Source: Geothrix sp. 21YS21S-4
Lineage (GTDB): Bacteria > Acidobacteriota > Holophagae > Holophagales > Holophagaceae
NCBI RefSeq assembly: GCF_030845995.1
Contig: NZ_CP132719.1
Coordinates: 2,232,001-2,296,000 of the forward strand
Reading direction: 5' to 3'
Length of the DNA stretch: 64,000 bases
Shown here piece by piece: positions 32,300-40,594 of the stretch. The notes under the pieces were generated by a model. The model was given only the letters and a program-made list of their open reading frames with translations. It ran no database searches and had not been told where the DNA came from. How positions within the stretch are numbered: the first letter of the stretch is position 1; each line of letters begins with the position of its first letter. The position numbers were made by a program, and so were the translations under genes.

Positions 32300-32463
32300 G
32301 CCCACCAGACTAGCCGGGGTGGCGTCCCAGCCAAACGACCTCAAAACACGAGATGCTCGAGTGAGAAAATTCCAGATTGATTCTTTACCTATAGCTATTC
32401 ATTCGGCTAGCCTCCAACCATCGATCTTGAGTGCGGTCATCAGGGAACGGGGGCGTTGTGCGG

Positions 32464-35400
32464 ATGTTCAAAGCGGCTGTGTGGACCTTCCTGTGGGTCC
32501 TCGGAGGTTCGTGTGCCCTGAAGGGGCAGATCGATACGACAACGGCCCTCACCCAGGCGCCTTCGGCCTCCTATCACGTGTCCTCCCGGCTGGGAGGTTT
32601 CGATGCGATCACGGGAAAAGGGTCGTTTTCGCTGCCTCTAGGTCCCACCCTCCCGGGTCGGATTCCCGCCGGATTCTCTCTGAACTTCGACGGCACCGGC
32701 TTGATGGGCAGCTTTCGGCCCGTGACGTGGCGTCTGGGAAATTCCTATCAGACGCCCCAGGCTGCATATTCCAACACCGTGACCCTCTTCGGTTCGGACC
32801 TCGTTTTCCACTCCTTGCCGTCCAGCCTGGTTCCTTCTGCGACTTCCCTTCAGACCTGGATGACTGCCCGGCGAGTGGATACGGGTGAGGCAGCGGCGGA
32901 TGCGAGGATCAATGAGATCCGCAACTCGGGAGCGCAAATTGTCTCCGGGCCCACCAAGACATTCATTCAGGATGCGATCCAGGCCACGACGGACGGAACC
33001 AAGTTCCTGGCGTGGTACCACTGGCGCATCACCTATGGCCTCCCCAATCCCAAGAACCCCGATGTAGACGAGCGCACCGTCAATCAAGACATGCCCATGA
33101 ATTGCGCGGTCATCAACGGGGATCAGGCCGTTTTCCAGTCCGAAAATATCACCTATGTAACCACGCTTTGGGGAGACAAGGTCTCCATCCTCGAAACAAC
33201 CGCTCAAGACGGCTTGAGCGCTTCGTTTACGATTCGAGACGAAGTGGTGCCCTCCAATAGCCTTACCCTTAGCGTGAACACCTCACTGCCAGCCACGGGC
33301 GATCAGAAATTCCGTTCCGCCACCTTGGGCGTGACCGCCACGGGCGCACTCTCCGGTCTTCCCGTAGCCATAGCTTCCGGCTTCTACCTCCATCCCACCA
33401 GTTTGCCAAATTGGACCGGCTCGACCACGTGGGCGGGGGCCTTCCTTCCCATCTCTCACACTTCCCGAGCCGTGGATGGCACTGAGCGCACCACCACATT
33501 CCAGTGGAACTACAGCTTGGTGCCAGGTTTCAGCCTTGTTATAGAAGGCATATCTGCCGGAGAACTCGGCATCCGGAAAATGCAGCACTCAGATGGCCTC
33601 GTAGAAAAATTCGCCGGTTCTGGCGCCCCAACCTACGGGAATAAATGTTGGAATTTCGCTTATGGAACATGGACCGGCTTTAAAGCAGGAAATTCCATGT
33701 CTTCGATCGGGCCCGGCTTTTCCGGCATCGACCGCATTCAGACGGATGGGACGGGAAGCAGCACCCGCGTCTCTCGGATCATTCCGTGGGGATCTTTCGA
33801 TGCAAGCTCCACCCCTCATGTCTGGCGATGGAGTTCGTTTGACCAGAAGACGCTGATCTACGCCTTCGATCGCCCGACCTTTTCCAGCGGCCCCAGCGGC
33901 CTTCCCTATCGTCTGACGCGGCTGACACACGTGTCCTTGCCCGGAAGCGACCCTTCAAGCTCCACCGCGTTTCTGGCCTACACGTCGGCCGTCGTGCAGG
34001 CGGAATCCCTGTACGGCACGGGCGTGGGAAGTGATTGGAGCCCCCAGGGGGCTACCACCACGTCGGTCATCCAGTATTCCGGATGGGATCTGAGTTCATG
34101 GATCAATCCCACCAATGCATTGCTCTACCCCACCACAGCGGTTGCCACGCGCGTCCAGACCTTCACCCCGGATCTCCCCACCAAAACCACCCTCGTGGGA
34201 GATCTCAGCAAGAACGGCAGGGATGCGCGGGGTCCGGTGCGGACGGATGAATCGACAGATGGGCCAGCCGGCTTGCCGGCCCTGAAAACCGGTAGGGAGA
34301 CGCCAGCCTGGAATTCCCCCCCGTCAAATCCTTCCCTGGACGGGAATGTGCGCCGAACGGGCGTGGTCACCCGCGAATGGCGTGATTCCCTCGCCGCGCT
34401 GAAGACGTTGACGGACCAAAAGACCTTGGCGGGAAGTGCCCTACCCAACCTCCGAGGCGTGGCCTCGGCGGATTTCGGGACGACGACGTACGCCTATGAT
34501 GCGTTGGGCCGGATTTCGAGCCAGAAGGGGGACCGGGGCGGGTTCACGGCGGAGGAGCAGCGGAGCTATGTGGACGGGCTGCCGCTGCTGCGGGAGACCA
34601 CCCAGAATGCCCTGACGGGGCCCGGCGGGCCCTACTACCCCAATCCTGACAATTCCGGCATGGTGGCCGGAAAGGTCTACACCTGGGCGGACACGCACGT
34701 CCAGGGAGGTCCCTCCACGGTGAGGGACAAGATCGACGGGCGGACGGAGTCGTTCCATTACGACGACCTGGGGCGGGAGACGGGCCACACGGACGTCCTG
34801 GGCATCACCACCACCACGAGCTACGACGCCTGGGGACGGAAGTCGCAGGTGACGCGCCTGGCGCGGGGCGGTGTGGGCGCGGTCACCACCGACTACGCCT
34901 ACGACGTGAACGGGACGTGGAAGGACGAGACCCTCACCGCGGATGGCAGGAGCCTCCGCACCCGGACGAACCTGGACGCCTTCGGGCGGGCGGTGAAGGT
35001 CACGGCCTACGACGCCAATGGAATCCAGGCCACGTCGCAGAGCTTCGGCTACGACGGGTTCGGGCAGAAGGTCCGCCAGAGCCCCGTCCTGACAAGGACC
35101 CAGGCTTCCTGGGGAAACGAGACCTGGGCCTACGACGGCCAGGGGCGGATGACGGACCACTGGGACGCCCAGGGACGGCTGCTCCAGCATGTGACCCTTC
35201 AACCCACCTGGACCACGATCGGCGGAATCACGGCGGTATGGACCACGATCCAGGACGACCGGGGCTTCACCCGGTCGGAGGCGGTGGACCTGCTGGGGCA
35301 GAAGCGGGCGGTGATCGACCAGGCGGGCCAGCTGAGCGAGTCCTTCTACGACCAGGACGGCCACCTGATCCAGACCCTGCAGGGCAACCAGCAGCGGAGC

Positions 35401-38400
35401 TACACCTACAACGCCATGGGGTGGCTGACCAGCCGGACGGAGCCCGAGGAGGGGACGACGGTCTATTCGAAGTTCACCCAGGCCGGAGCGCCGCTGGTGG
35501 TCCAGCAGTACGGCCGGAGCGGGGGGAGCGTCCGGAATGCCTTCAGCACGGTCCTGAACGACCAGCTCCTGCCGGCGATCCAGAGCGCCTCCGGACCCGA
35601 GGGAAGCGTGGTGCGGACCCTGACCTATGACCCCGCCACGCGGCTGCTGACGGCGCTCCAGGAGACCCAGCCCAACGGGACCCTGACGGAGGCCTACGGC
35701 TACGACGACCTGTTCCGCGTTTCCAGCAAGACCGTCTCCGACGGCGCCCAGAGTTTCAATGTCAACCGCGCCTTTGATGCGGCGGGACGGGTGACGAGCC
35801 TCACCTATCCCGCCGCCGCCGGCCGCCGGGACGTGGTGGGCTACACCTACGACGTCCTGGGTCGGATGTCGGCGGTGACGGTGAACGGAGAGACCCGACC
35901 CCGGGGATCGATGGTCTACGACCAGGTCTCGGACACCTCCGTCAGCCAGGTGCTGACCTACGGGAACAACGCCTGGACCACCAGTCGGGCCGATCGCGGG
36001 GAATTGGCCCAGGTGACCCACGTCGCGCCCGCGGGCACGTTGGAAGACCATACGATGGCCTGGACCCCCGGGGGCCTGCTGACGCGCCGGGGGACGGACA
36101 CCTTCGGCTACGACGCCCTCCAGCGGCTGAGTTCCGCCCACGTGCTCAACCCCCAGACGGGAACGTATGTGGACCAGGGCTTCAGTTACGACCGCTACGG
36201 AAACCGCACGTCCAGCACCACCACGGCCCCCGCGGGCACCCTTCCGGCCACGTCCGAAGCCCTCACCTGGACCGCCGCCTACGGCAGCAGCAACGACCTG
36301 CCCGCCACTGTGGCCGCCGTGGGCGGGAGCCTCGCCACCGGCGCCCTCTACGACGACCTGGGGCGGATGAAGCAGGTATGGACCACGCCGGGGCAGGCCG
36401 CCACCCAGACCGCCTGGACCTACGATCCCTCGGGCAGGATCGTCAAGGAGAATGGGACCGCCTACCTGCTGGACGGGCAGGGCCTGAGGTTCCGACGGTC
36501 GAAGGGGGACGGATCGATCACTTACACGGTCTACGGCTTCAACCGGGAACCCCTGGTGGTGATCAGCAATGGAATGGCTCCGGGAGAAGCCACCCTCGAG
36601 AATGGCGTCACACCCTCAGGGGGGCCCTCCGCCACCACGCATGGCGGAGGGAAAGCTGTTCGCATTTGGCACAAGCAGGGTACGAACTGCTCCCTTGATA
36701 GATATTTAGGAAGATTCGAGGCTGGGGACATCGTGACGGCCACGGTGTGGTGCAGGACCGACCCTGGGACCACGGCCACTCTTTTTCTCGGGGATGCGGG
36801 CGGACCCGATCCCTATGACAACCAGAGCGTGGCCTCCCTGGATGGGAACGGGAAGTGGCAGTGCCTGACCGTGAGCCGGACCCTGTCCCATGCCGATGAC
36901 CTGTGGATCTACATCTACGGGAACGTCATGGGGAACGACCCCGCGAATTCAACCAGTGTGTTGTACGACGATGTTACGGTAACCAGTACCCGGAAAGGCG
37001 TGGTGCTGCAGGATGGATTTGAATCGGGCTTCGGCGATTGGGATTCGGCAGGTCAGCCCAATGACCTTCTCTCGTCTTCTACTGCCACGACCTACACCGG
37101 CCATGCTGCCGTTCGCATCTGGCACAAGCAAGGAACGAATTGCTCCCTTGCCAGGTACTTAGGGAAATTCGATCCGGGCGACATCGTCACGGCTACGGTG
37201 TGGTGTAAGACGGAGCCGGGGACCGCGGCGACTCTTTTTCTCGGTGATGCGGGCGGAGTCGATCCCTATGACAATCAGATGGTGATCCACCTTGATGGGA
37301 ACGGGGATTGGCAGCGCTTGACCGTGCATCGAACCATGTCCCATGCGGATGATATCTGGATTTATATCTATGGGAATGTCATTGGAAACGACCCGGCGAA
37401 TTCCACCAGCGTGTTGTACGACGATGTCAGGGTGACCAGCACGCTGAAGGACGTGGTGTTTCAGGATGGATTTGAATCGGGCCTCGGCAATTGGGATTCG
37501 GCGGGGCAACCCGGTGACCTTCTCTCCTCCTCCACGGCGACCACGTACAGCGGCCATTCGGCGGTTCGGATCTGGCACAGGCAGGGAACGAACTGTTCCC
37601 TGGACAGGTATCTGGGAAGGTTCGAGGCGGGGGACATCGTCACGGCCACGGTGTGGTGCAAGACCGAGCCTGGAACCGCGGCCACCCTTTTCGTGGGTGA
37701 TGCGGGCGGAGCCGATCCCTATGACAATCAGGCGATTCAGAGTCTGGATGGGAATGGGGATTGGCAGCGCTTGACCGTGAACCGGACCTTGTCCCATGCC
37801 GATGACATGTGGATTTACATCTACGGGAACGTCGTGGGGAACGACCCGTCCAATTCAACCAGCGTCCTGTACGACGAGGTCACGGTCACCAGCACCCGGA
37901 AAGGCGTGGTGCTCCAGGATGGATTTGAATCAGGCTTCGACAATTGGGATTCCGCAGGCCAACCCAACCAGTTGGTCTCCGCTGTTAACACCTATTGGGA
38001 ACGATCCATGGTCTACGGCTTCGGTCAGCTCCTCAGCGAGAGCCGGCCGGATGGGGTGATCTACATCCAGGGGGATCAGGTGGGGAGTCCCAACGTGATC
38101 ACGAATGCCAGCGGGGTTCTCGTGAACCGGACGAAGAACCTGCCCTTTGGCGAGCGGCTGATAGACGGGCTGCCCGGCGCGCCCAAGAGCCTGCGGCGGT
38201 TCACCAACCACGAGGAGGACCCCGATTCGAACGCGATCTACATGCAGGCAAGGACCTACCTCGCAGGCTACGGGAAGTTCGTCCAGGTGGATCCCGCCTA
38301 CGACCAGACCAAGGATGATCCCGAGACCTGGAACCTCTATAATTACGTTACGAACAACCCCGTCACCAAGACCGATCCGGATGGACGGATCATGAGCATC

Positions 38401-39150
38401 CCCGAACAGCAGCAGCAGGCCTGGAACAACTTTTATTCAACCCGATTTGGGGATGCATTATATGCAATAAGCAATGTATCGATGGTTTTAAGGAATACAG
38501 GTAGGGATAGTTATACCCTCTCCATAGATACCGACATCCAAGCAATCGGTAGAGAGACGATCTTTACCAACTTTCGAAAAGAAGCGGAGGGACCCTCTAC
38601 TAATACCAAACCCGCCCAAAGAGGGGCTGTTGATGGTTCAGCTTCCAAGAATGCACTTGTAGCCGGAACCCGAGATCTCTCGGAGAAATCTATCCAGGCG
38701 CTTGAGAAAGCACTGGGAACAGGCTCCACGGAAAAAACATGGAGAGGTGCTATCGAGAGTGCTGCCGAAGCCAAGGGAATAGACCCGAATCTTCTAGTTG
38801 GATTAGGGTTCAAGGAATCAACCCTGAACCCCAATGCGGTTAATGGTGAAGCTAAGGGGATGTTCCAGATACTTCCCGCGCGACAAGCTGATCTACATTT
38901 GAGCACTGAAGATCTATTTACGCCTAAAGTCGTTGCAGCAGTTGCGGGAGCACTATCGGGTGCAATCAAGACATTTCATGGAAACACTGATCTAGCTATC
39001 GCTTCATGGACTCTTGGTGCTGGCAGAACACAAAGTGTATTTGCCAAGGAAGGTATGGATGGAGTTCGAAATAGATTATTAGATGCTCGGAACCCATCAT
39101 ATGGTCGTCTTGGTATTAATTATATCGATATTATCAGGAGTTTTCAATGA
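32464..39150 (+). CDS. Secreted RHS-repeat polymorphic toxin with C-terminal lytic transglycosylase tip
   Basis: This protein has about 2228 residues. A Sec signal (MFKAAVWTFLWVLGGS) is followed by an N-terminal region of about 650 residues and many YD/RHS repeats ('YDALGRISS', 'YDDLGRETGHTD', 'YNAMGWLTS'). Then come three tandem 151-residue modules, and the RHS-associated core ('GDQVGSPNVITN', 'LPFGERLIDG', 'RRFTNHEEDPDSNAIYMQARTY', 'FVQVDP'). After the boundary 'NPVTKTDPDGR' (38374-38388) the sequence becomes AT-rich and encodes a 254-residue tip. The tip contains 'IDPNLLVGLGFKESTLNP', 'GEAKGMFQILPARQ' and 'LAIASWTLGAGRT', the SLT lysozyme-like pattern, with E2118 the likely catalytic acid. 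It should cleave peptidoglycan glycan strands. An alternative start is GTG 32458 or 32431. The next gene overlaps its stop. Confidence 0.88.
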   Translation: MFKAAVWTFLWVLGGSCALKGQIDTTTALTQAPSASYHVSSRLGGFDAITGKGSFSLPLGPTLPGRIPAGFSLNFDGTGLMGSFRPVTWRLGNSYQTPQAAYSNTVTLFGSDLVFHSLPSSLVPSATSLQTWMTARRVDTGEAAADARINEIRNSGAQIVSGPTKTFIQDAIQATTDGTKFLAWYHWRITYGLPNPKNPDVDERTVNQDMPMNCAVINGDQAVFQSENITYVTTLWGDKVSILETTAQDGLSASFTIRDEVVPSNSLTLSVNTSLPATGDQKFRSATLGVTATGALSGLPVAIASGFYLHPTSLPNWTGSTTWAGAFLPISHTSRAVDGTERTTTFQWNYSLVPGFSLVIEGISAGELGIRKMQHSDGLVEKFAGSGAPTYGNKCWNFAYGTWTGFKAGNSMSSIGPGFSGIDRIQTDGTGSSTRVSRIIPWGSFDASSTPHVWRWSSFDQKTLIYAFDRPTFSSGPSGLPYRLTRLTHVSLPGSDPSSSTAFLAYTSAVVQAESLYGTGVGSDWSPQGATTTSVIQYSGWDLSSWINPTNALLYPTTAVATRVQTFTPDLPTKTTLVGDLSKNGRDARGPVRTDESTDGPAGLPALKTGRETPAWNSPPSNPSLDGNVRRTGVVTREWRDSLAALKTLTDQKTLAGSALPNLRGVASADFGTTTYAYDALGRISSQKGDRGGFTAEEQRSYVDGLPLLRETTQNALTGPGGPYYPNPDNSGMVAGKVYTWADTHVQGGPSTVRDKIDGRTESFHYDDLGRETGHTDVLGITTTTSYDAWGRKSQVTRLARGGVGAVTTDYAYDVNGTWKDETLTADGRSLRTRTNLDAFGRAVKVTAYDANGIQATSQSFGYDGFGQKVRQSPVLTRTQASWGNETWAYDGQGRMTDHWDAQGRLLQHVTLQPTWTTIGGITAVWTTIQDDRGFTRSEAVDLLGQKRAVIDQAGQLSESFYDQDGHLIQTLQGNQQRSYTYNAMGWLTSRTEPEEGTTVYSKFTQAGAPLVVQQYGRSGGSVRNAFSTVLNDQLLPAIQSASGPEGSVVRTLTYDPATRLLTALQETQPNGTLTEAYGYDDLFRVSSKTVSDGAQSFNVNRAFDAAGRVTSLTYPAAAGRRDVVGYTYDVLGRMSAVTVNGETRPRGSMVYDQVSDTSVSQVLTYGNNAWTTSRADRGELAQVTHVAPAGTLEDHTMAWTPGGLLTRRGTDTFGYDALQRLSSAHVLNPQTGTYVDQGFSYDRYGNRTSSTTTAPAGTLPATSEALTWTAAYGSSNDLPATVAAVGGSLATGALYDDLGRMKQVWTTPGQAATQTAWTYDPSGRIVKENGTAYLLDGQGLRFRRSKGDGSITYTVYGFNREPLVVISNGMAPGEATLENGVTPSGGPSATTHGGGKAVRIWHKQGTNCSLDRYLGRFEAGDIVTATVWCRTDPGTTATLFLGDAGGPDPYDNQSVASLDGNGKWQCLTVSRTLSHADDLWIYIYGNVMGNDPANSTSVLYDDVTVTSTRKGVVLQDGFESGFGDWDSAGQPNDLLSSSTATTYTGHAAVRIWHKQGTNCSLARYLGKFDPGDIVTATVWCKTEPGTAATLFLGDAGGVDPYDNQMVIHLDGNGDWQRLTVHRTMSHADDIWIYIYGNVIGNDPANSTSVLYDDVRVTSTLKDVVFQDGFESGLGNWDSAGQPGDLLSSSTATTYSGHSAVRIWHRQGTNCSLDRYLGRFEAGDIVTATVWCKTEPGTAATLFVGDAGGADPYDNQAIQSLDGNGDWQRLTVNRTLSHADDMWIYIYGNVVGNDPSNSTSVLYDEVTVTSTRKGVVLQDGFESGFDNWDSAGQPNQLVSAVNTYWERSMVYGFGQLLSESRPDGVIYIQGDQVGSPNVITNASGVLVNRTKNLPFGERLIDGLPGAPKSLRRFTNHEEDPDSNAIYMQARTYLAGYGKFVQVDPAYDQTKDDPETWNLYNYVTNNPVTKTDPDGRIMSIPEQQQQAWNNFYSTRFGDALYAISNVSMVLRNTGRDSYTLSIDTDIQAIGRETIFTNFRKEAEGPSTNTKPAQRGAVDGSASKNALVAGTRDLSEKSIQALEKALGTGSTEKTWRGAIESAAEAKGIDPNLLVGLGFKESTLNPNAVNGEAKGMFQILPARQADLHLSTEDLFTPKVVAAVAGALSGAIKTFHGNTDLAIASWTLGAGRTQSVFAKEGMDGVRNRLLDARNPSYGRLGINYIDIIRSFQ
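36640..37990 (+). repeat. Three tandem 453-bp (151-residue) modules inside the RHS gene
   Basis: The segment encoding 'AVRIWHKQGTNCSL' starts its Val codon at 36658, 37111 and 37564, an exact 453-base spacing. Each unit includes 'GDIVTATVW', 'ATLFLGDAGG', 'WIYIYGN' and 'SVLYDDV' and is joined by 'DGFESGFGDWDSAGQP'. The strand-rich pattern resembles a galactose-binding-like carbohydrate-binding module. It may bind glycan on the target surface. Confidence 0.9.
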
Positions 39151-39698
39151 TGATTAAAAAAATGGTTGTCTACAATTTTGCCAAATTGATTACATTGTTT
39201 ATATTTATGGGCATTGGATCTAATTCTATACAGGCACATGATGTCGGAATCTCTATTCAAGAATTTAGAAATATTATTAATAAAGTTCCAGACTCTAAGG
39301 CACACATAGAATCAATTTTGGTTTTTGCGCCTGAAGAGCGTGTTGCAATCCTATACAGTGATTTAACGCGAGGATGGGGCATTTGGGTCTATCAAAAACG
39401 CGGTTTAAAGCTTTGGGAGTTAGTATGGGGATCTCCCAAGCTAGATGATTCTTTCTCTATAAGTTCACCCGATCGATTTAAATTATGCAATCTTCCAACC
39501 GGAGAGCGAGGTATACAATTCTCAGGGTGTGGAGCACATAATTGCTCGGATATTTATTCTGTAATGATCTATGTACCTTCACAAAATAAATCATATTCGG
39601 TCTCCCATCGTTTGGATCGAATTGATTATTCATTTATTCCAGTTGTGAGCGATGAGAACCTATACAAGGAATATTTAGGTGAACAAATTCGGAACTAA
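39147..39698 (+). CDS. Putative exported immunity protein with Ivy-like CxxHxC loop
   Basis: This 183-residue, strongly AT-rich gene has an ATG overlapping the RHS stop (ATGATGA), so it is co-translated with the toxin. Residues 1-30 are a Sec signal ending 'SNSIQA', so the mature protein is periplasmic, where a peptidoglycan-cutting tip would act. The mature part is beta-rich and contains 'GIQFSGCGAHNCSDIYSVMIY', with C128 and C133 flanking H131. This resembles the CKPHDC loop by which Ivy-type inhibitors plug lysozyme and lytic transglycosylases, followed likewise by a hydrophobic strand. The whole-protein similarity to Ivy cannot be tested here. The call as immunity protein rests on position, export signal and this loop. 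Confidence 0.7.
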   Translation: MMIKKMVVYNFAKLITLFIFMGIGSNSIQAHDVGISIQEFRNIINKVPDSKAHIESILVFAPEERVAILYSDLTRGWGIWVYQKRGLKLWELVWGSPKLDDSFSISSPDRFKLCNLPTGERGIQFSGCGAHNCSDIYSVMIYVPSQNKSYSVSHRLDRIDYSFIPVVSDENLYKEYLGEQIRN

Positions 39699-39800
39699 CC
39701 GCGCAAACAAATGGAGCCCAGGGTCTGACAGGTCCACCGGGGCAGTTAGACAACCTGCAACAGAAGGCTAAAGACGCCACAATCAAGGCAGGTGAGGTTT

Positions 39801-40082
39801 CTAGGCAGAAGTTTGGGCAGCTCGATGTCTTCGCGTATGGTGGCACTGGGGGTCCTTGAGCTGCCGCTCGTACTGCTCCTTCACGTCCAGGGGCTTGACC
39901 CGGAGGGCGTTCTCCATCCCGCACTTGCCATCCTCGATCCAGCCTTCGATCTCCGAGGGCGGAAGGTCGAAGGCCCGGCTGGTTTCCGCCACTGTCGTCT
40001 TCCCCTGGATGATCTCCATCACCAGCGCTGCCTTTCGGCGTGCCGTCCATCGTTTGATCTCGTCTTCCATGGCTCCACTCAT
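39801..40082 (-). pseudogene. Truncated IS3-family-like transposase OrfA
   Basis: The frame from ATG 40082 reads 'KRWTARRKAALVMEIIQGKT', then 'VAETSRAFDLPPSEIEGWIE' and 'GMENALRVKPLDVKEQYERQLKD', a well-known helix-turn-helix OrfA of an IS3-type element. After 'QLKDPQ' (about 39846) the expected 'EAYGEAMLELRARK' is replaced by unrelated residues and a stop, and no orfB follows. The gene is therefore cut off and cannot support transposition. Confidence 0.75.
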
Positions 40083-40132
40083 GGGGTCTCCTTTGGAGTA
40101 TCCCCTGAGCAGCTTTTCACTGGGTCATTACA
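39846..40132 (-). mobile_element. Remnant of an IS3-like insertion sequence (left part only)
   Basis: From the OrfA start the minus-strand upstream sequence 'tgtaatgacccagtgaaaag' (ending at 40132) looks like a terminal repeat about 50 bases before orfA. The other end and orfB are missing; the breakpoint is near 39846. It lies directly behind the RHS/immunity pair, where ISs often mark past exchanges. Between 39699 and 39845 there is a start-less open frame with 'GLTGPPGQLDNLQQKAKDAT', possibly a scrap of an older toxin tip. Confidence 0.6.
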
Positions 40133-40594
40133 GGCTTGCGTAGAGAGGAGCCAACCCTGGTTGAGGTGGACATGAAGCTCGGCCATCCAGGCGGAATCGG
40201 CGGCTGCGTTGGGTCCCACCCAGCCTCCCCCGGCAGCCAACGTCCCAAAGTATAGATATGGGCAGCCTCCGGAGATGCGACCCATTGCCGGAAATGAGAG
40301 AGGTGGTGAGGGGGTCTGACCGGGGGGAAATAGACATCCCCGCACCTGTGGATCCAGAGGAGGTGGGGGTGGCTGGAGTTGTCGTGGGCTGCGACCAGGG
40401 TTTTCAGATCCTCAATGGTGGCTGGGTTCTCTGTTGTTCCATAGGTCCCGAATGAGCTGAGTGCAATCAGGACCGCATTGAAACAACATGCCGTGTCGAA
40501 AGAGGCAGGAGATTCTCGGGCCGGTACTTTCTAGGTTTCAGCCTTCAGAGATGGCCTGATCGGGGTCGGTATACGCCGCAGGGTGCGATTCGAA
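40133..40594. other. Gene-free stretch behind the RHS locus
   Basis: I see no gene with convincing codon use, no RNA and no strong hairpin here. Short frames exist on both strands but look random. It separates the IS remnant from the 3' end of acs and is probably decayed accessory DNA. Confidence 0.5.

Follow-up and report, generated by a model that had tools for sequence, protein, structure and literature searches.

A transglycosylase tip on a Geothrix RHS protein and a predicted exported immunity protein with an Ivy-like histidine loop

In Geothrix sp. 21YS21S-4 the gene for a large RHS protein ends in an AT-rich stretch that is overlapped by a small second gene. This arrangement raises the question of what the end of the RHS protein does, whether the small gene encodes an antidote to it and, if so, how that antidote might work. 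An initial annotation, made from the letters alone, had read the pair as a lytic transglycosylase toxin and its immunity protein, the latter being a recruited form of the lysozyme inhibitor Ivy. The locus was analysed within a stretch of 64,000 nucleotides, here called the window (contig NZ_CP132719.1, positions 2,232,001 to 2,296,000 of the forward strand), and coordinates are those of the window unless another locus is named.

The RHS protein and its transglycosylase tip

The RHS polymorphic toxin gene occupies 32431..39150 on the forward strand in an intact reading frame and encodes 2239 residues if counted from the GTG at 32431 or 2228 from the ATG at 32464. Its product comprises an N-terminal stretch that, judged by eye, is signal-like, followed by RHS/YD repeats, an RHS-associated core and a variable C-terminal tip. 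The repeats were recognised in a Pfam scan (PF05593, E=7e-26) and the core by TIGR03696 (E=2.8e-14), with TIGR01643 also matched; repeats and core preceding a variable tip are what is found in RHS polymorphic toxin systems. The core ends, and the tip begins, at DPDGR (38374..38388, forward strand; residues 1982-1986 counted from GTG 32431), the junction already picked out in the initial annotation. Part of the RHS gene (36658-37967) consists of 2.9 in-frame copies of a 453-bp unit that contains ...AVRIWHKQGTNCSL...DGFESGFGNWDSAGQP...; the units read like a carbohydrate-binding or adhesion module situated after the RHS repeats and before the core, with only weak OB-fold matches.

The tip after DPDGR is 253 residues long. 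Approximately its first 120 residues (38389..38751, forward strand) are taken as a linker or pretoxin region, the first 109 of them having no Pfam match. Tip residues 122-222 (38752..39054, forward strand) form an SLT lytic transglycosylase domain. This domain matched PF01464 (SLT, family 1) with E=1.8e-10 and 40.8 bits against a Pfam cut-off of 21.3, and the tip also matched PHROG families of lytic tail proteins and internal virion endolysins with E-values down to 2.4e-11. The FKESTLNP and GMFQI segments from which a lysozyme-like tip had been proposed are both present in the tip, and the assignment as a lytic transglycosylase is well supported. An alignment of the tip with 14 SLT proteins from the phylum showed that the ES motif, which holds the catalytic Glu, and the GMFQ motif are intact; the AYN-type motif reads SWT, and for this reason the activity of the tip is not certain. 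The catalytic Glu of FKES is E2129 when the toxin is counted from GTG 32431 and E2118, the number first given to it, when counted from ATG 32464. A search for relatives of the tip in plasmids and viruses found none.

With regard to delivery, a type VI secretion system (T6SS) was considered and rejected: the genome, a single contig, lacks the sheath gene VipA/TssB (PF05591), and the RHS protein begins with a signal-like stretch and showed no PAAR domain in the Pfam scan. The type II secretion pseudopilin GspG is present in the genome above cut-off, and delivery of polymorphic toxins by type II secretion has been described (PMC3482391). The RHS protein is probably released by this route.

Composition, tip exchange and the other RHS loci

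The fall in GC content after the core, noted at the outset, is pronounced: the window as a whole stands at 0.664 and the RHS gene at 0.627, with 0.461 for the tip and 0.362 for the small gene. Such values are as expected for a cassette acquired elsewhere. DNA similarity to the closest RHS paralogue in the same genome reaches the end of the core and then stops, and neither the tip nor the small gene found a match in any of ten RHS loci compared.

The genome is a single contig of 3.08 Mb with 14 RHS-core matches, and the core was matched in 30 of 70 genomes searched. In the loci that were read, from this genome and from relatives in the genus, a common core is followed after the same junction by differing tips, and several loci of this genome contain short open reading frames that open with the core once more and close with a further tip, followed by a further small gene. 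The genes after the tips look exported or membrane-bound in 18 of 20 cases by a crude hydropathy screen. Such a layout is the classical one for orphan cassettes of polymorphic toxin systems (PMC3482391). The same core with many other tips, together with orphan cassettes of core, tip and immunity gene, marks the locus as a probable polymorphic toxin/immunity module and places it among RHS polymorphic toxin systems. Orphan cassettes of core, tip and immunity gene stand in tandem at four further RHS loci of the genome, at 1544500-1558500 (L070), 2972000-2989000 (L071), 2771000-2785500 (L072) and 1313500-1330500 (L073). The result is a large polymorphic toxin arsenal in a genome of 3.1 Mb that has no T6SS sheath gene.

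Just downstream of the small gene lies a degenerate transposase gene fragment on the minus strand (39846-40133; open reading frame 39801-40082), the DNA of which shares 91.7 per cent identity with a segment of L073 (14639-14927 of that locus) next to the RHS cassette array there. Between the two, at 39699-39858, a short open stretch (...GAQGLTGPPGQLDNLQQKAKDATIKAGEVSRQKFGQLDVFAYGGTGGP) ends where the transposase fragment starts, and is possibly the remnant of an older tip that was displaced. A scan of other tips in the genus with Pfam and PHROG gave no usable match. By eye, several of the tips in L048, L049, L071, L076, L077 and L079 resemble other enzymes that act on peptidoglycan (M15-like, L,D-peptidase-like or SleB-like); this by-eye reading as peptidoglycan peptidases was excluded from the evidence. 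This RHS lineage may be specialised in cell-wall toxins.

The small gene and its likeness to Ivy

The small gene (39147..39698, forward strand) is an open reading frame of 183 codons for a predicted exported immunity protein, assigned from its signal-like N terminus and its position and having no family match. Its ATG at 39147-39149 overlaps the toxin stop codon TGA at 39148-39150, and a second ATG follows at 39150; the coordinates agree with the earlier description of a gene starting within the toxin's stop codon, and the N terminus, for which a Sec signal had been noted, is signal-like. No family was matched among Pfam (E<=5), TIGR or PHROG models. Relatives were likewise not found by tblastn of plasmids and phages, in back-translated scans of genome contigs and viral contigs, in 150 related genomes or in 396 genomes of the phylum (E<=0.5). 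Weak hits were taken as chance, having frames with stops and no CxxHxC, and a hit in Burkholderia proved to be a glycosyltransferase. Position, gene overlap and export signal lead to the prediction that the small protein confers immunity to the tip. The reading of the two genes as an effector/immunity pair, which was part of the initial annotation, is well supported by the swappable-tip position, the polymorphism of tips and the overlapping, predicted-exported small gene, and we hold it to be very probable that the RHS tip and the small gene constitute a toxin/immunity module.

The sequence C128-G-A-H131-N-C133, reported previously, is present at 39528..39545 (forward strand), and is proposed to form a disulphide-bounded histidine loop because both hhalign and HMMER place it in register with CKPHDC of Ivy. 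The profile search against the Ivy family that had been suggested as a check came out negative: Pfam Ivy (PF08816) did not match the small protein even at E<=5 with default filters, and a six-frame Ivy search of this genome at E<=10 did not find it. Furthermore, among 396 genomes of the phylum not one contained an Ivy above cut-off, and an Ivy-motif scan of viral contigs found nothing. As Pfam Ivy gave no match and the phylum yielded no Ivy over cut-off, we do not class the small protein as Ivy.

A more local comparison was made using hhalign and an Ivy profile built from 46 collected sequences. CGAHNC aligned in register with CKPHDC over 35 columns with a score of 29.8 and a probability of 45 per cent; both cysteines and the histidine are kept, K and P are replaced by G and A, and D by N. 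Full shuffles of the small protein reached at best 23.5 (0 of 300 attaining 29.8), and shuffles that kept the six-residue motif attained 29.8 once in 300. When the flanks of the motif alone were shuffled the best score was 27.5 (0 of 500 attaining 29.8), and when only the 25 downstream residues were shuffled two of 500 did so. HMMER without filters gave 10.7 bits (E=2e-5 for a single comparison) over a unit of strand, loop, strand, turn and strand. Among 400 sampled open reading frames without the motif the best non-Ivy score was 24.8; this control contained only two frames with CxxHxC, one of them a true Ivy, so that the motif is not controlled for in natural proteins. The similarity to Ivy thus exceeds the bare motif but covers only the inhibitory hairpin. 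This similarity would lack significance in a search of all families and, since Ivy was picked because of the motif, some selection remains. Outside the CxxHxC hairpin the small protein is mostly without detectable similarity to Ivy, and the spacing from helix to loop is approximately 85 residues, as against approximately 45 in Ivy, so that the likeness does not account for the N-terminal half. Of the claim that an Ivy-type inhibitor had been recruited there thus stands a hairpin that locally outscores motif-preserving shuffles; the family name itself falls, as no family model calls the small protein Ivy. In two Ivy relatives (L139 and L140) the loops are altered to CKPHAC and CKPQDC, the latter without the histidine; the loop of recognised Ivy-like proteins tolerates change.

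Structure models were also made. A single-sequence model of the small protein had a pLDDT of 41 and was unusable, its fold matches being meaningless. Aligning Ivy rows to its C-terminal half raised the pLDDT to 62, and to 70-84 around the loop; these rows steered the model, and steered likewise its best PDB matches, which were Ivy structures (1uuz, Z 8.4, rmsd 2.5 over 86 residues). Because the Ivy rows were in the alignment, this model indicates only that the sequence can fit an Ivy fold.

Proposed mechanism, alternatives and related systems

Toxicity, protection, delivery and loop insertion, as we infer them, would proceed as follows. The RHS protein, Sec-exported and presumably released by type II secretion, would present its C-terminal SLT transglycosylase, which, going by its family and conserved Glu, would act in the periplasm of a competitor and cut the glycan strands of the peptidoglycan there. 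The overlapping small gene would yield an exported protein that shields the producer and its siblings. This protein would most likely sit on the transglycosylase cleft and insert the disulphide-bounded loop C128-G-A-H131-N-C133, bringing H131 next to the catalytic Glu in the manner of Ivy on lysozyme. Exchange of a tip cassette would have brought the module into the RHS gene. The transglycosylase MltB is reported to be inhibited by P. aeruginosa Ivy (Clarke 2010, cited through PMC10746161), and E. coli is impaired or lysed by a surplus of transglycosylase in its periplasm (PMC10139938). An Ivy-type inhibitor that acts on a transglycosylase, and the harm done to E. coli by an excess of the enzyme, make a dedicated inhibitor a plausible antidote. 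An Ivy-like plug of the transglycosylase is the mechanism that we favour, at roughly even odds.

The main rival to such a plug is inhibition by another fold. The genes would then be the same toxin/immunity pair, with the small protein acting through a non-Ivy fold or surface, for example a beta-propeller of the PliI, Tsi1 or XAC2610 type with an exposed loop or a wall that blocks the cleft, and CGAHNC would be a structural disulphide only. Inhibitors of peptidoglycan hydrolases are diverse, and the beta-propellers PliI, Tsi1 and X-Tfi XAC2610 insert a different loop (PMC10933484), and T4 Spackle stays out of the cleft (PMC7650644); that the predicted N-terminal strands of the small protein lack an Ivy counterpart also counts in favour of this rival. 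On the other hand, the local similarity to Ivy extends past the motif, and no other inhibitor family was matched in Pfam at E<=5. We regard this rival as a serious contender, with rather less than an even chance of being correct.

Two further readings deny that the small gene is an antidote at all. SLT domains serve wall passage too, as in phage virion proteins. The tip might accordingly be a degenerate or non-lethal SLT domain for passage of the RHS protein itself through the wall, with the small gene as an accessory or regulator, and the PHROG matches to phage virion proteins and the SWT in place of an AYN-type motif could be taken in this sense. Such a role is improbable, given that ES and GMFQ are intact and that the SLT domain occupies the exact position of a swappable tip, where other loci have unrelated tips, each with its own small and mostly exported gene. 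It is harder still to credit that the small gene is a chance open reading frame or a decayed remnant left after tip replacement. The searches of plasmids, phages and genome contigs detected no relative of it, and the DNA shortly after it contains a degenerate transposase fragment, but a frame of 183 codons that has a signal-like N terminus, overlaps the toxin gene at its start, contains paired cysteines and lies where an immunity gene would be expected, next to an intact toxin frame, speaks against this.

The proposed module, a transglycosylase tip with an Ivy-like plug, can be set beside several known systems. The T6SS pair Tse2a/Tai2a of Stenotrophomonas rhizophila consists of a predicted Slt-like effector and an adjacent immunity protein annotated as an Ivy c-type lysozyme inhibitor and, compared by description only, likewise joins a Slt-like transglycosylase effector to neighbouring Ivy-type immunity (PMC13340143). 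Tse2a is T6SS cargo linked to VgrG2, whereas the toxin here is an RHS tip, and Tai2a bears the Ivy family name, whereas the small protein reaches no family model. With Ivy (PF08816) the small protein shares predicted export, a C-x-x-H-x-C loop in register on a beta-hairpin and, as proposed, a target of the same enzyme class; it differs in lying below Pfam detection, in having CGAHNC rather than CKPHDC and a longer N-terminal half, and in being part of a toxin cassette. For T6SS effectors that are lysozyme-like or transglycosylases, LprI/DUF1311 lysozyme-inhibitor proteins have been suggested as immunity partners (PMC8867033, PMC12135965), which is likewise inhibitor-type immunity to a glycan-cleaving effector, but with another inhibitor family and T6SS delivery. 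X-Tfe XAC2609 is a peptidoglycan glycohydrolase effector and X-Tfi XAC2610 a periplasmic, lysozyme-inhibitor-like protein with modelled loop insertion (PMC10933484); as proposed here, the two cases would share a glycohydrolase effector and a loop-inserting periplasmic immunity protein, and the PliI-type beta-propeller and T4SS delivery differ. RHS toxins with peptidoglycan-targeting tips, as treated in PMC3482391, have in common with the present locus the RHS repeats, the core junction, the exchangeable tip and the adjacent immunity gene. That paper lists RHS proteins with L,D-peptidase tips and a lysozyme-fold glucosaminidase toxin domain; the word 'transglycosylase' is absent from its main text as searched, and the passages covered contain no Ivy-like immunity protein.

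The combination had been put forward as one without a known description. Its parts are of kinds already known. As a concept it is not wholly new, since a Slt-like T6SS effector with Ivy-annotated immunity has already been published (PMC13340143); that pair is not on an RHS protein, and Ivy-like immunity on an RHS protein was not encountered in the literature searched, subscription papers and preprints aside. What would be new here is an RHS tip of the transglycosylase type whose immunity protein matches no known family yet keeps an Ivy-like loop. We would tentatively suggest, as a possibility short of an even chance, that the small protein is the first representative of an immunity family whose histidine plug was taken from Ivy and remodelled until no longer recognisable, or else arose anew on an unrelated beta-scaffold, as a dedicated antidote to an RHS-borne transglycosylase in a phylum in which no ordinary Ivy was found.

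Ivy is best known for protecting bacteria from the lysozyme of their hosts. Since bacterial lytic transglycosylases are inhibited by it as well, its true role has been under debate. If the proposed mechanism is correct, an Ivy-like plug serving as a dedicated antidote would link this mode of inhibition to conflict among bacteria, and a single point mutation, at H131, would make it testable. A transglycosylase tip would also join the RHS arsenal of bacteria without a T6SS.
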